DNA from: Acidobacteriota bacterium
GTDB lineage: Bacteria; Acidobacteriota; Terriglobia; Terriglobales; Acidobacteriaceae
Length of the DNA stretch: 37,161 bases
Direction: 5' to 3'
Assembly: GCA_021828835.1 (NCBI GenBank)
Contig: JAJZCY010000005.1
Coordinates: forward strand, 1-37,161
The translations under genes and the position numbers were made by a program. The notes beneath the pieces were generated by a model. That model was not told the DNA's origin. It did not search any database and was given only the letters and a program-made list of their open reading frames with translations. Positions 6,881 through 27,923 of the stretch are shown piece by piece. The number at the start of each line of letters is the position of its first letter. The first letter of the stretch is position 1.

Positions 6881-7738
6881 TCAGCGCAGCAGATCTTCCA
6901 GGGTGGTGCTGAGGTCGGTCTTCTCGTCGCGATACTTGACGATGACGGGAGCATAGAGGCTGAGGCCCCAGGCTTCACTCGCCGGATGGCCCTTGCCCTT
7001 GTTCACGGAGCGGGAGCCGGGAACCACGACGGCAGCTTCAGGAATGATGAGCGGCTGCTCGGGGGTGGCGCGCAGCACTTCGCCACGGACCAGGTCGTAG
7101 ACCGGCGTGCCGCGGGTGAGGATGGTTCCGGCGGCGAGGACCGCATTCCTGCGGACGATGGTTCCTTCATAGACGCCGCAGTTGCCGCCCACCAGGACGT
7201 CGTCTTCAATGACCACGGGGCTGGCGTTGACCGGCTCGAGGACTCCGCCGATCTGGGCCGCGGCGCTCAGGTGCACGTGCTTGCCGATCTGGGCGCAGGA
7301 GCCGACCAGGGCATGGGAATCGACCATGGTGCCTTCATCGACGTAGGCACCCACGTTCACGTACATGGGCGGCATGCAGACCACGCTGCGGGCCAGGTAG
7401 GCGCCGGCACGGACCGAGGAGCCGCCGGGGACGATGCGCACCGCGTCCGCGGCAGTGAAGTGGCGGGCGGGATAGGTGTGCTTGTCCACAAATGAGAGGC
7501 CGCCGGCGGGCAGTTCCTGGAGAGCGCCGAGGCGGAAGCCCAGCAGGATGCCGCGCTTGACCCAGGCGTTTACCCGCCAGCCGGTGGGTGCGGAGGCATC
7601 GGGCTCCGCGGCGCGCAGCGCACCGCTTTCGAGTTCGGTGCGGAGGCGGAGGAAGGCATCCATGGCGGCCTGGTCGCCGACCGCGGCCGGGCCCGCGGCA
7701 AAGTGCCGCTCGATCTGTTCGTGAAGTTGTTCGCTCAT
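6881..7738 (-). CDS. dapD: 2,3,4,5-tetrahydropyridine-2,6-dicarboxylate N-succinyltransferase
   Basis: The 285-residue protein matches DapD, the left-handed beta-helix acyltransferase that moves succinyl from succinyl-CoA onto tetrahydrodipicolinate in the lysine/meso-diaminopimelate pathway. Visible family features are [16 protein letters not shown] near the N-terminal domain, the hexapeptide-repeat helix ([29 protein letters not shown] and neighbours), [15 protein letters not shown], and the C-terminal block [14 protein letters not shown]. The ORF track extends upstream to 7858, but the family begins at [13 protein letters not shown]; aaggga lies directly before this ATG, unusually close. 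The product supplies both lysine and the cross-linking residue of peptidoglycan. It is transcribed alone on the minus strand, 132 bp downstream of a small hypothetical gene that has its own terminator. Confidence 0.95.
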
Positions 7739-7800
7739 TCCCTTCGAGTTTATCAACCTGGAAGGAGGCCAAAGCAGGGAGGAGGGGAAGTTGCGTGGCA

Positions 7801-7838
7801 AAGAAAAACGCGGTGCGAGCCATGGCTCTGCACCGCGT
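7801..7838 (-). terminator. Rho-independent terminator of the small minus-strand gene
   Basis: The inverted repeat acgcggtgc / gcaccgcgt encloses gagccatggctc, giving a stem of about 14 pairs with one bulge. On the minus strand it is followed by TTTTTCTTTG. It lies 33 bp after the stop of the 118-residue hypothetical gene and separates it from dapD. Confidence 0.75.
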
Positions 7839-7870
7839 TCACGTTGGGGGAGGGCCAACGGAAAACTTAA

Positions 7871-9975: not shown

Positions 9976-10962
<987 letters not shown>

Positions 10963-10999
10963 GATGGACCTCGCGCGGGGGGGAAGACCGCTGTTGTCC

Positions 11000-11029
11000 A
11001 TTAGACACCGCGGGGCGGGGGATGGTCAC
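11000..11029 (-). promoter_or_regulatory. Candidate sigma-70 promoter for msrPQ
   Basis: On the minus strand GTGACC (-35) and TCTAAT (-10) are separated by 18 bp. The predicted start of transcription leaves a leader of about 30 nt containing gagg before the msrP ATG. This is a consensus match by eye only. Confidence 0.4.
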
Positions 11030-24052: not shown

Positions 24053-24643
24053 ATGGCAAGCACTACGGTTTCAGCGCACTTCGCGCCCGATCCCTCTGTG
24101 TGGGACGATCGGGTGGCGACTTTTGTGCAGACCGCTGAGCGCCGCCGCGAGCACTTTCTGCGGCTGGCGAGGCGGGTAACGCCTTGCAGGGAAGAAGCAG
24201 AAGACATCGTTCAGGAAGCCATGTTGCGCGCTTTCAGGAGCCTGCCCCGGTTCCGGGGCGACGCGCAGATGAGCACATGGCTGCAGACCATCGTGCAGAA
24301 CGCGGTACGCGAATGGCTGCGGCAAAACCGCGGAACCATCCTGGTCTCCATCGAATCCTCCGGAGACGAGGACAGCGCGCCGCTGGATCTGCCCGACCGG
24401 CGGAGAAGCCCCGAAGACTGGTGCGAACACTCGGAGATGCAGGCCATCCTGCTCGGCGAGATCGAGAAGCTGGGGGCGATCTACCGGCAGGCCATCCGCA
24501 TGTGCGCGCTGGAGCAGATCTCGCAGGAGGAGACCGCTCAGGCACTCCAGGTGACGGTGCCAGCCGTCAAGACCCGGGTCTTCCATGCCAAGCGCCGGTT
24601 GAGGGGCGCACTGGAAAAGCGCCTGGCCAACCGCAACAACTAG
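24053..24643 (+). CDS. RNA polymerase sigma factor, ECF (sigma-70 group 4) family
   Basis: The 196-residue protein has sigma region 2 (EEAEDIVQEAMLRAFRSLPRF, with STWLQTIVQNAVREWLR) and region 4 (YRQAIRMCALEQISQEETAQAL, VPAVKTRVFHAKRRLRGAL with the helix-turn-helix), joined by a short linker rich in Asp and Pro, and lacks region 3. It should direct RNA polymerase to a dedicated set of stress or envelope promoters. The ATG is preceded by aaggag 10 nt upstream. No anti-sigma gene follows; the next gene is convergent, and the upstream one-helix protein is the only candidate partner, with no direct evidence. The ECF subgroup cannot be assigned by eye. Confidence 0.9.
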   Translation: MASTTVSAHFAPDPSVWDDRVATFVQTAERRREHFLRLARRVTPCREEAEDIVQEAMLRAFRSLPRFRGDAQMSTWLQTIVQNAVREWLRQNRGTILVSIESSGDEDSAPLDLPDRRRSPEDWCEHSEMQAILLGEIEKLGAIYRQAIRMCALEQISQEETAQALQVTVPAVKTRVFHAKRRLRGALEKRLANRNN

Positions 24644-24651
24644 ACCACAAC

Positions 24652-24685
24652 CTGCGCGCCGCGCTCACAACCGGCCGGCGCGCAG
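24652..24685. terminator. Inverted repeat between convergent sigma factor and MurU-like genes
   Basis: ctgcgcgccg (24652-24661) and cggcgcgcag (24676-24685) form a perfect 10-bp stem with a 14-nt loop. It covers the 3' end of the minus-strand gene and lies just after the sigma factor. There is no U-tail, so bidirectional termination is only possible, not certain. Confidence 0.3.
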
Positions 24686-25405
24686 ATCCTCCTCCGCAGC
24701 CAATAAACTTTCTGGACGGCCCAGGTCGCGCCAGCGGCATCCGTCCGCCCGAAAGGCCGCGATCTTTTCTCCGCGCCCGGCCAGGCGCAGGTACGCGGGG
24801 ATAATCGGGAACTCACCGTCTTCCTCGAGCAGCGAGAGCAGGCGCGGTGAGACCGCGTGGATGCCGCAGAAGGCGAGCGCGTCGGGGCGATCGGCCGGGC
24901 GAGCCAGTTCCGGTTCACCGTCCCGCCCGGCGCGCCGCCCGCAGAGAAGCCCGTCCTGATCGAAGAGCAGATAACGGGAGGTGGAGCGCTCCTGCACGGC
25001 CAGCGTGGCCAGCGCGCCGCTTTCGCGGTGCTGCTGCAACAGCAGGGCCAGGTCGATGTTGCTTATGACATCCACGTTGTGAAGCAGGAAGGGCTGATCG
25101 CGCTCTGTACCCTCAAGAAAGAACCACGCCGCCTGCTTAAGTCCGCCGCCGGTGTCGAGCAGCAGTTCTTCGCGCGAAATCTCGATGCGCATGCCGAAGT
25201 TGCGATGCGCCGCCAGAAAGTCCTCCACCAGATCGGCGAAGTGGTGGGTGTTGACGATGGCTTCGGTGACGCCGAAGCTGCGCAGCCGCTCCAGGCAGAT
25301 CTCCAGCAGGGTTCGGCCGTTGAGCGTCACCAGGGCCTTGGGCCGGTCGTTGGTGAGGGGGCGCAGGCGGGTGCCCAGGCCGGCTGCGAGGACCATGGCC
25401 TTCAT
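24665..25405 (-). CDS. Sugar-1-phosphate nucleotidyltransferase, MurU-like
   Basis: The 246-residue protein is a nucleotidyltransferase of the GlmU/RmlA superfamily. The activating signature is at the start: MKAMVLAAGLGTRLRPLTNDRPKALV; later blocks are IVNTHHFADLVEDFL, LDTGGGLKQAAWFF, LLHNVDVISNIDL (metal-binding Asp) and the C-terminal WRDLGRPESLL. In Pseudomonas putida the similar MurU makes UDP-MurNAc from MurNAc-1-phosphate in cell-wall recycling; a mannose-1-phosphate guanylyltransferase is an alternative. The assignment as MurU-like rests on the gene directly upstream, whose stop overlaps this ATG by 4 nt (ATGA) and which encodes a predicted anomeric sugar kinase. The length is close to MurU, with no C-terminal left-handed helix as in GlmU. 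It converges with the ECF sigma factor. Confidence 0.8.
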   Translation of the reverse strand: MKAMVLAAGLGTRLRPLTNDRPKALVTLNGRTLLEICLERLRSFGVTEAIVNTHHFADLVEDFLAAHRNFGMRIEISREELLLDTGGGLKQAAWFFLEGTERDQPFLLHNVDVISNIDLALLLQQHRESGALATLAVQERSTSRYLLFDQDGLLCGRRAGRDGEPELARPADRPDALAFCGIHAVSPRLLSLLEEDGEFPIIPAYLRLAGRGEKIAAFRADGCRWRDLGRPESLLAAEEDLRAGRL

Positions 25406-26829
25406 CGTCCGATCTTCTCCTGTTCGATGTGCCGGACTTCAATCTGGAGCCCTGCGCGCCCGCGCAAGTGCTGTGCGAGCTGCTCGGCCAGGTAAACGGA
25501 GCGGTGCTGGCCGCCGGTGCAGCCGAACGAGATCATCAGGTTGGCAAAGCCGCGCCGCTGATACTCCGCCACGCTCATGTCGGCCAGCGAGAAGACATGC
25601 TCCAGATATTGGCGGACGCGCGGGTCGGGGGCTAGATAGTCGATCACGCACTGATCTTTGCCGTTGAAGGCGCGGAAGCGCTCTTCGCGGCCGGGGTTGG
25701 GCAGGCTGCGGGCGTCGAAGACGAAGCCGCCCCCGTTGCCGGACGGGTCGCGGGGCATTTCGCGATGGAAGGAGAAGCTGAAGATGCGCACGGTGAGCGG
25801 CGTAGAAGACGGGGCCAGCGATTGCAGCTTCTCCGAGGCGGCGATGCGGTCCAGAGCCTCGAGGAGCGCGGGCAGCGCGATGGGTAACTTCACATGGCCG
25901 GCCAGCCAGCGCAGGTTCTGGAGCGCGAAGGGCACGCTCTCCAGGAAGTGCGGCTTGCGCTCGTAGAAGCCGCGGAATCCATAGGCGCCCAGCGCCTGCA
26001 GGATGCGCACGTAGACGTAGGCGTAGTAATGATCCAGGAACGCGGCGCGGTCGACGGGGATGTAGGCGGCCAGGCAGTCGAGATAGTGGTCCAGCAGTTC
26101 CTGGCGGAGCTTCGGCGGCAGGTTGGCTTTGGCGTCGTAGAGCAGGGAAGCGATGTCGTACTGGAGCGCGCCCTTGCGGCCTCCCTGGTAGTCGACGAAC
26201 CACGGCTTGCCCTCGCGCAGCATCACATTGCGGGATTGGAAGTCGCGGTAGAGAAAGAAGTCATGCGGCGCGGCCAGCAGGAAGCGGGTGAGAGCGCCGA
26301 AGTCGTCTTCGAGCGCCTGCTCGTTGAAGGGCACCCCGGCCAGGCGCAGGAAGTAGTACTTGAAGTAGTTGAGATCCCAGGCGATGGACTGGCTGTCGAA
26401 GCTCGCGCGGGGGTAGCAGACGCTGTAATCGAGATCGCGGCCGGCCTCCACCTGAAAGCGGGGCAGGGCAGCGACGGTCTTGCGGTAGGCTTCCACAGCC
26501 TCGGGAGCGATCGCATCGCCGGAGCGGTGAGCGCCGAGGAAATCAAAGAGCGTGGTATCGCCGAGATCCTCTTCGAGATAAGCGCCGGCTTCGAGGTCCT
26601 GCGCGTAGATCTCCGGCACGGGCAGGCCATGCTGGCGGAAGTGGCGGGAGAACTCCAGGAAGGCGAGATTTTCTTCGCGCACCGCATGCAGAACCCCAAT
26701 GGCGGTGACGCCGCGGCCGCTGAGGCGAACGATGGCGCGGCCGGAGCCGCCGAGCTGGCCTTGCAGGGGGACGGCGCTCTCCGGCGCGTAGTGAAAGCGC
26801 TGCTCAAAGAGGCGCTCGAGAAGGTTCAT
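25402..26829 (-). CDS. Fusion protein: APH/AmgK-like sugar kinase plus RapZ C-terminal domain
   Basis: In this 475-residue protein, residues 1 to about 330 are an aminoglycoside-phosphotransferase-fold kinase: catalytic loop FFLYRDFQSRNVMLR (the HxDxxxxN-type motif) and the metal-binding aspartate in FVDYQGGRKGALQYDIASLLYDA. AmgK, which phosphorylates MurNAc and GlcNAc at the anomeric carbon, has this form. Residues about 345-475 match the C-terminal domain of RapZ/YvcJ: FVFDARSLPNPG, DYLAPDPRVRQYLEH and the phosphate-binding signature SFGCTGGQHRSVYLAEQLA. The P-loop domain of RapZ is absent and replaced by the kinase. In E. coli this C-terminal domain binds glucosamine-6-phosphate and small RNAs. 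The start at 26829 is the first internal ATG; no strong ribosome-binding site is seen. The gene overlaps the MurU-like gene by 4 nt, which argues for a joint function in amino-sugar salvage. Confidence 0.85.
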   Translation of the reverse strand: MNLLERLFEQRFHYAPESAVPLQGQLGGSGRAIVRLSGRGVTAIGVLHAVREENLAFLEFSRHFRQHGLPVPEIYAQDLEAGAYLEEDLGDTTLFDFLGAHRSGDAIAPEAVEAYRKTVAALPRFQVEAGRDLDYSVCYPRASFDSQSIAWDLNYFKYYFLRLAGVPFNEQALEDDFGALTRFLLAAPHDFFLYRDFQSRNVMLREGKPWFVDYQGGRKGALQYDIASLLYDAKANLPPKLRQELLDHYLDCLAAYIPVDRAAFLDHYYAYVYVRILQALGAYGFRGFYERKPHFLESVPFALQNLRWLAGHVKLPIALPALLEALDRIAASEKLQSLAPSSTPLTVRIFSFSFHREMPRDPSGNGGGFVFDARSLPNPGREERFRAFNGKDQCVIDYLAPDPRVRQYLEHVFSLADMSVAEYQRRGFANLMISFGCTGGQHRSVYLAEQLAQHLRGRAGLQIEVRHIEQEKIGR

Positions 26830-26909: not shown

Positions 26910-27923
26910 TCAGTGGGCGAGCGGAGACTCGTTGGCGAGGATGCGGTAGAGCGTGGAGCGGGAGATCTGCAACTGGCGCGCGGCGCGGAGTTTGTTGCCG
27001 CGATTCAGGTCAAGGACGTACTGAACGTGGTGGCGGATGACGGCGTCGAGGGAGAGGTCGAGGGGATTGCCGGCCCAGCCGGGATTGCCGGCCGAGCCGG
27101 GATGGGCGGCGGGGCCGGGCCGGGCGGCGAAGGCTGCTTCCAGGGACGAGCTGAATGGGGATGCGCCGGGCTCGGGCAGGGCCAGGTCGACGGGGCGGAT
27201 GGTGCCATTGGCGGCTTCGAGCAGCGCGGCTTCGAGTACGGAGGCGAGCTCGCGGACATTGCCCGGCCAGTTGTGCTGGAGCAGGCGGGCGAGGGTGCCG
27301 GGGCCGAGCGCGACGGGGCGCTGCTGATAGCGGAGGCAGAGGCGCTCGAGCAGGAACTGAGCGAGCGGAGCAATATCTTCGCGGCGCTGGCGCAGCGGCG
27401 GCACGGCGAAGCGGATGGCGGTCAGGCGGAAGGCGAGATCGGGCAAAAAGAGGCCCTGGCCGGCCATCTGGCGGAGCGAGGATTGCGCGGAGGCCAGCAC
27501 CACGGCCCGGCCCGGAGGACGATCCTGCAAGCTCTTCAGCACTCCCAGCAGCAGGTTCTGTCCGGGCGGGGCGAGCAGGTCGACGCGGTCGAGATAGGTG
27601 TAGCCGGCCAGGGTGCCGGGATCGGCGTCGGTGGCCAACCACTCGCGGGCATCGCGGCGCTGAAAGCTGGTTGCCGCCAGCGGCGAGCGCGCAAACAGGT
27701 AGCGCGCCAGGGTCTGCTTGCCCGAGCCGGCCTCGCCTTCGAGAGCCGCCACCCACAGATGCGGCGCCGCCATCTCGGCCTGCGTTAACAGCTTGCGCCA
27801 GGCGGGGCTGATCCCGACTGCCGGCGGAATGGAGCGATCGACGCCCGGGTGGGGGGGCGGTGCGGTGGAACTCACGGTGGCGGGCGAGGGCTGGCGATCG
27901 AAATGCGCGGAGTCCTGCATCAT
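26910..27923 (-). CDS. Degenerate sigma-54-type AAA+ regulator with C-terminal Fis helix-turn-helix
   Basis: The 337-residue protein has an AAA+ domain related to sigma-54 activators: Walker A GEAGSGKQTLAR, the sensor II-type region FRLTAIRFAVPPLRQRREDIAPLAQFLL, and NWPGNVRELASVLEAALLEA. The C-terminus is a Fis-type helix-turn-helix (NRGNKLRAARQLQISRSTLYRIL). Three parts are altered: the GAFTGA loop that touches sigma-54 is missing (the protein is shorter there by roughly 25-30 residues), Walker B reads YTYLDRVDLL with Arg in place of the Glu, and the sensor I region reads ASAQSSL. It therefore probably cannot activate sigma-54 and may act as a repressor or ATP-binding switch. A Gly/Pro/Asn-rich linker (PGSAGNPGWAGNP) precedes the DNA-binding part. 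The gene is 80 bp upstream of the kinase-RapZ gene on the same strand. The ATG is preceded by gaggga. Confidence 0.8.
   Translation of the reverse strand: MMQDSAHFDRQPSPATVSSTAPPPHPGVDRSIPPAVGISPAWRKLLTQAEMAAPHLWVAALEGEAGSGKQTLARYLFARSPLAATSFQRRDAREWLATDADPGTLAGYTYLDRVDLLAPPGQNLLLGVLKSLQDRPPGRAVVLASAQSSLRQMAGQGLFLPDLAFRLTAIRFAVPPLRQRREDIAPLAQFLLERLCLRYQQRPVALGPGTLARLLQHNWPGNVRELASVLEAALLEAANGTIRPVDLALPEPGASPFSSSLEAAFAARPGPAAHPGSAGNPGWAGNPLDLSLDAVIRHHVQYVLDLNRGNKLRAARQLQISRSTLYRILANESPLAH

Follow-up and report, generated by a model that had tools for sequence, protein, structure and literature searches.

Recycling of N-acetylmuramic acid (MurNAc) in Pseudomonas follows an anabolic route in which AnmK converts anhydro-MurNAc to MurNAc-6-phosphate, MupP converts this to MurNAc, AmgK converts MurNAc to MurNAc-1-phosphate, and the uridylyltransferase MurU acts last; the route gives Pseudomonas intrinsic fosfomycin resistance (PMC5371407). 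A second described system is the E. coli protein RapZ (YhbJ). The C-terminal domain of RapZ dimerizes by itself (PMC5737377), and by itself it binds glucosamine-6-phosphate (GlcN6P) with nanomolar affinity, while the RNA-binding tail of RapZ has been reported as restricted to the Enterobacteriaceae (PMC7073468). His190 lies in the pocket that holds sulphate or GlcN6P, and the H190A substitution abolishes both RapZ activity and GlmZ binding (PMC9841335). Khan and Goerke pointed out a homology between this pocket and the loop that cysteine-dependent tyrosine phosphatases carry, and proposed that RapZ might hydrolyse GlcN6P (PMC7199280). Islam et al. showed that C247S RapZ is inactive and suggested a catalytic thiol; the density in the pocket of their GlcN6P crystal is likely to be a transformed product (PMC9841335).

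An AmgK-like kinase fused to a RapZ C-terminal domain

Elements of both systems are joined in a single gene of an Acidobacteriota bacterium from soil. The window, which is the whole stretch of DNA analysed (37,161 nucleotides of contig JAJZCY010000005.1), comes from an Acidobacteriota-like draft genome of 334 contigs that is 87.6% complete. Its nearest named relatives, among the matches listed, are Acidobacteriaceae, Terracidiphilus and Sulfotelmatobacter bins. The relevant features are as follows.

25402–26829, minus strand: fusion gene, AmgK-like kinase plus RapZ C-terminal domain, 475 residues (ATG at 26829, TGA at 25404–25402)
25825–26829, minus strand: kinase part, residues 1–335, aminoglycoside phosphotransferase fold (Pfam APH, 50–253)
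26227–26250, minus strand: catalytic loop YRDFQSRN, residues 194–201 (D196 and N201 invariant)
26185–26196, minus strand: metal-binding VDYQ, residues 212–215 (D213 invariant)
25405–25797, minus strand: RapZ C-terminal domain, residues 345–475 (Pfam PapZ_C, 346–469)
25726–25740, minus strand: Gly-rich insertion GNGGG, residues 364–368, found neither in E. coli RapZ nor in the RapZ of the same genome
25687–25698, minus strand: NPGR, residues 378–381, with Gly380 aligned to the His190 position of E. coli RapZ
25492–25521, minus strand: GCTGGQHRSV, residues 436–445, containing the phosphatase-type loop C437-x5-R443-S444
25402–25405, minus strand: ATGA, where the fusion's stop overlaps the next gene's start
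24665–25405, minus strand: MurU-like sugar-1-phosphate nucleotidyltransferase, 246 residues (domain present; MurU is the best NCBIfam match)

The original prediction was that kinase motifs and a RapZ signature share one reading frame and that the usual RapZ ATPase domain is missing. Both statements hold, and the strand, which was not named, is the minus strand; the plus strand of 25402–26829 is interrupted by stops. The mechanical open reading frame begins at an upstream TTG, which was dropped in favour of the conserved ATG at 26829. A Pfam search of the 475-residue protein found APH (residues 50–253, E = 3.9e-14) and PapZ_C, the RapZ C-terminal domain (residues 346–469, E = 3.1e-33), and neither the N-terminal P-loop ATPase domain of RapZ nor a HAD domain. 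The AlphaFold2 model has a mean pLDDT of 91.7 for the whole chain and 93.2 for the C-terminal domain. In Foldseek searches the C-terminal domain superimposes on 5o5s, the structure of the same domain of E. coli RapZ, with an rmsd of 1.6 and a TM score of 0.92 (by target length), and the front part falls on phosphotransferases. By sequence, the nearest proteins of solved structure are the phosphotransferase 3csv and RapZ of E. coli.

The possibility that the fusion arose from a frameshift near residues 335–345, or from misassembly at the junction, was ruled out. The fusion is kept in 30 of 35 genomes of the same genus, where the proteins align end to end at about 70–78% identity, in a single open frame across the junction. 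A scan of named genomes gave at least 579 confirmed relatives, and the best 80 of these belong to Acidobacteriota, Bacteroidota, Elusimicrobiota, Calditrichota, Ignavibacteriales/Chlorobiota, Neomarinimicrobiota and Opitutia (Verrucomicrobiota). Given this conservation within the genus and across at least seven phyla, the fusion is real. The relatives' alignment points to strong constraint on both domains, with the catalytic residues of both halves invariant. The papers searched gave no earlier account of a RapZ C-terminal domain fused to an AmgK-type kinase. The architecture and the pocket changes described below set the protein apart as a variant within known kinds; it would be of a new kind only if phosphatase activity were proven. 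Orthologues include those of Labilibacter marinus and Labilibaculum filiforme. In one draft genome (L093, 3935–5893) the fusion frame runs into MurU after GCTGG, an apparent frameshift in the RapZ-C part.

Gene neighbourhood and the salvage setting

The MurU-like gene starts within the stop codon of the fusion gene, in a 4-base ATGA overlap. In a survey of the fusion beside MurU homologues, 69 of the 78 fused loci with enough room have a MurU-like gene directly downstream on the same strand. Most kinases of the same family that lack RapZ-C also have a MurU-like neighbour. Fusions with no adjoining MurU are those of L082, L083, L087, L089, L094, L095, L099 and L105; near the last of these (L105, 537–1352, minus strand) lies a gene that resembles glucosamine-6-phosphate deaminase, by eye only.

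Like AmgK, an anomeric MurNAc/GlcNAc kinase, the front half has the kinase fold, the catalytic D..N, the metal-binding D and a MurU partner. Unlike the fusion, AmgK has no RapZ domain, and against the two NCBIfam AmgK models the fusion scores only 58 bits (cut-off 500) and 47 bits (cut-off 550), both below the equivalog cut-off. The adjoining gene has the domain of the MurU family, and MurU is its best match, but at 116 bits it falls below the equivalog cut-off of 250. Against the RapZ model the fusion scores 105 bits, where the equivalog cut-off is 244. Judged by these scores, the fusion protein is an outlying relative of both RapZ and AmgK. Because an AmgK-like kinase adjoins a MurU homologue, matching the AmgK-MurU route of Pseudomonas, MurNAc salvage is the likely pathway of the gene pair.

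Other genes of the window were also considered. The upstream gene (26910–27923, minus strand) encodes a short protein resembling sigma-54-dependent activators, with a Walker A motif, an AAA lid and a Fis-type helix-turn-helix; it has no clear GAFTGA loop and may be an odd or degenerate regulator. It was dropped as a member of the unit, not being conserved in the relatives looked at. An ECF-type sigma factor gene (24053–24643, plus strand) is convergent with the MurU-like gene, the two frames ending about 20 bases apart. Further away are genes for a hexapeptide succinyltransferase with a DapD-type N-terminus (6884–7858, minus strand) and a molybdopterin oxidoreductase (9979–11001, minus strand).

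A remodelled RapZ C-terminal domain, fused, split and lost

The fused domain resembles that of RapZ and of its Bacillus counterpart YvcJ in its fold and in the C-x5-R-S loop. It differs in having a kinase in place of the N-terminal ATPase, and in two changes within the domain. In all 81 fused domains aligned, the position of E. coli RapZ His190 is Gly, followed by Arg or Lys, and a 5-residue G-[NH]-GGG loop that is absent from E. coli RapZ is inserted. The other pocket residues (C, T, G, H and R) are intact, and C-T-G-G-x-H-R-S is invariant in 62 diverse fused sequences. These alignments indicate that fused RapZ-C is a distinct, remodelled subfamily.

The genome of the window encodes a separate, canonical RapZ, with a GMSGAGK motif and a score of 356 bits that passes the RapZ model; it has His at the His190 position and no Gly-rich insertion. 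The fused domain might be thought to act as a partner of this RapZ, but the Bacteroidota, which carry the fusion and lack RapZ, make that unlikely. In 118 sampled Bacteroidota genomes no canonical RapZ was found, and only fused or split RapZ-C domains were matched; the domain therefore does not need RapZ. About one fifth of this sample carries an AmgK-like kinase without RapZ-C. The family search for RapZ-C gave no match in the Bacillus subtilis control although B. subtilis has YvcJ, so some true members may be missed.

In three Bacteroidota genomes (G133, G115 and G197), RapZ-C is encoded by a separate gene, starting at its own ATG, that lies between adjacent kinase and MurU genes, which suggests that RapZ-C functions as an independent unit.

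L174 1158–2603; L182 1216–2724; L183 1271–2773: split kinase and RapZ-C genes before MurU, Bacteroidota; in L174 the standalone RapZ-C gene occupies 2205–2606

In a tree, the kinases with RapZ-C fall into what is essentially a single clade, within which the domain was lost twice. The two members that lack RapZ-C (L025, 3796–4947; L127, 3084–4079) have kept their MurU neighbour, and both of their genomes, G059 and G112, are without AnmK.

Possible functions of the fused domain

Presence of the domain tends to go with presence of AnmK. Among Bacteroidota with an AmgK-like kinase, AnmK was found in 11 of the 14 genomes with RapZ-C, versus 0 of 26 without it; for Acidobacteriota the corresponding figures are 5/5 and 5/70. 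AnmK is also present in 37 of 44 further fusion-bearing genomes. Fisher tests on this co-occurrence (p values of 1.5e-5 and 1.6e-7) were set aside as invalid because of the tree of one clade and two losses. The association is statistically weak, since there are only two independent contrasts and a sign test with two pairs cannot reach significance. AnmK adjoined the fusion in none of 80 loci, and the AnmK match in the genome of the window is cut by a contig end.

In six genomes with AnmK and a RapZ-C domain (G108, G189, G119, G115, G197 and G056), MurQ was not found. The last four of these gave nothing against the MupP model at E = 1e-15, and G108 and G189 have only HAD matches below the model's cut-off. 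None of 33 genomes passed that cut-off, and the best MupP match (101 bits) is below the score of E. coli phosphoglycolate phosphatase (109 bits). The cut-off is a strict one that excludes all the control genomes, even Caulobacter, and the many HAD phosphatases have broad specificities; another phosphatase may therefore exist in the genomes without a MupP match.

In the Pseudomonas route, a phosphatase carries out the sole step between AnmK and AmgK; the domain joined to the AmgK-like kinase in the fusion has a phosphatase-type loop. It is quite possible, if somewhat short of probable, that the RapZ-C part feeds the kinase by acting as a phosphatase on MurNAc-6-phosphate. The substrates in this scheme are inferred, as are the channelling and the chemistry of the phosphatase. 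RapZ-C would be a cysteine-dependent phosphatase that takes the 6-phosphate off MurNAc-6-phosphate, the product of AnmK, by means of Cys437 and Arg443, and would hand the freed MurNAc to the kinase half. The kinase half would then act like AmgK and phosphorylate C1 of MurNAc, and the product would be converted to UDP-MurNAc by the MurU homologue whose gene overlaps that of the fusion. RapZ-C would thus stand in for MupP, sharing its proposed reaction and its place in the pathway, but as an unrelated, cysteine-dependent enzyme where MupP is of the HAD family. As in cysteine-dependent protein tyrosine phosphatases, a C-x2-G-x2-R-S loop follows a strand and precedes a helix, with C437 and S444 invariant in the fusion. 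The overall fold is not that of these enzymes: Foldseek with the C-terminal domain found no phosphatase fold and only RapZ above noise, so the resemblance is one of loop, not fold.

Three points lead us to favour the phosphatase reading over a sensor: the invariance of the cysteine, the existence of stand-alone genes for the domain, and a gap in the pathway that such an enzyme would fill. Other observations count against it. RapZ-C is present in four genomes in which AnmK was not found (G051, G121, G218 and G133). In addition, MurQ occurs in the genome of the window and in most genomes of its genus, so MurNAc-6-phosphate already has an outlet there. The mutual exclusion of MurQ and the fusion that was expected from Proteobacteria was not seen, genomes of this genus holding both.

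A broader proposal, on which we are more doubtful, is that the protein is a bifunctional MurNAc-6-phosphate phosphatase/MurNAc kinase and that the fold of the RapZ C-terminal domain began as that of a cysteine-dependent phosphatase of amino sugars, which serves peptidoglycan salvage as an enzyme in Acidobacteriota and the Bacteroidota-related phyla and was recruited as a sensor in RapZ. If the phosphatase reading is true, a new kind of sugar phosphatase would fill the phosphatase step that anabolic MurNAc recycling lacks in several phyla without a recognised MupP. The reading would then also touch on the question why the RapZ pocket has a phosphatase-type loop in which a cysteine is essential (PMC7199280, PMC9841335). 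Both the fused and the split proteins offer material for testing the chemistry of the RapZ pocket free of RNA binding.

The main rival is a form of the original prediction, which held that one polypeptide serves both salvage and amino-sugar-phosphate sensing or RNA-level control. The AmgK-like kinase, RapZ-C and the MurU neighbour bear out the first half of that claim; GlcN6P sensing and small-RNA binding of the E. coli type found no support in that form. In the rival model, RapZ-C binds MurNAc-6-phosphate, MurNAc-1-phosphate, GlcN6P or GlcNAc-6-phosphate without turnover and tunes the kinase allosterically, giving feedback on salvage. Regulatory domains are often fused to the enzymes under their control, and the phosphate-binding loop of the fused domain is intact. 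The model also draws on the GlcN6P binding of isolated E. coli RapZ-C (PMC7073468), and the AnmK association would suit MurNAc-6-phosphate as the signal. However, the His190 equivalent is replaced throughout, binding alone gives no obvious role to the invariant Cys437, and GlcN6P as the signal, being a compound that all these bacteria have to produce, would leave the AnmK association unexplained. Split genes are also less natural for an allosteric domain, although contacts between subunits remain conceivable. Sensing of another sugar phosphate is possible, but as a whole this model is rather unlikely.

A scaffold role is improbable. RapZ-C would dimerize as in E. coli (PMC5737377) and do nothing more than dimerize the kinase or dock it to MurU, the pocket being a relic. 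This would agree with the invariance of D372, the equivalent of the Asp182 needed for self-interaction, and with the persistence of the kinase without RapZ-C in the G059 and G112 lineages. A relic pocket, however, would not hold C437, T438, G439, G440, H442, R443 and S444 invariant across phyla.

There is a slim chance that the pathway concerns another sugar, the kinase making a different sugar-1-phosphate (for example GlcNAc-1-phosphate or that of a surface-polymer sugar) for the nucleotidyltransferase to activate. The AmgK and MurU scores, well under the equivalog cut-offs, would allow this, but AmgK and MurU are still the best NCBIfam matches in their classes, the loci examined have no other recognised sugar-pathway genes around the pair, and the pair travels with AnmK.

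For the fused domain, a role in RNA binding and GlcN6P sensing as in E. coli is unlikely in that form, and binding of a small RNA or mRNA to regulate salvage or glmS is very improbable: the fold is homologous to an RNA-binding domain and the R184 and K194/R196 positions are still Arg in the window protein (R374, R384 and R386), but the residue whose H190A substitution kills RapZ activity and GlmZ binding (PMC9841335) is Gly throughout, the Gly-rich loop is inserted, the RNA-binding tail is reported to be confined to the Enterobacteriaceae (PMC7073468), and the same genome encodes a canonical RapZ of its own.
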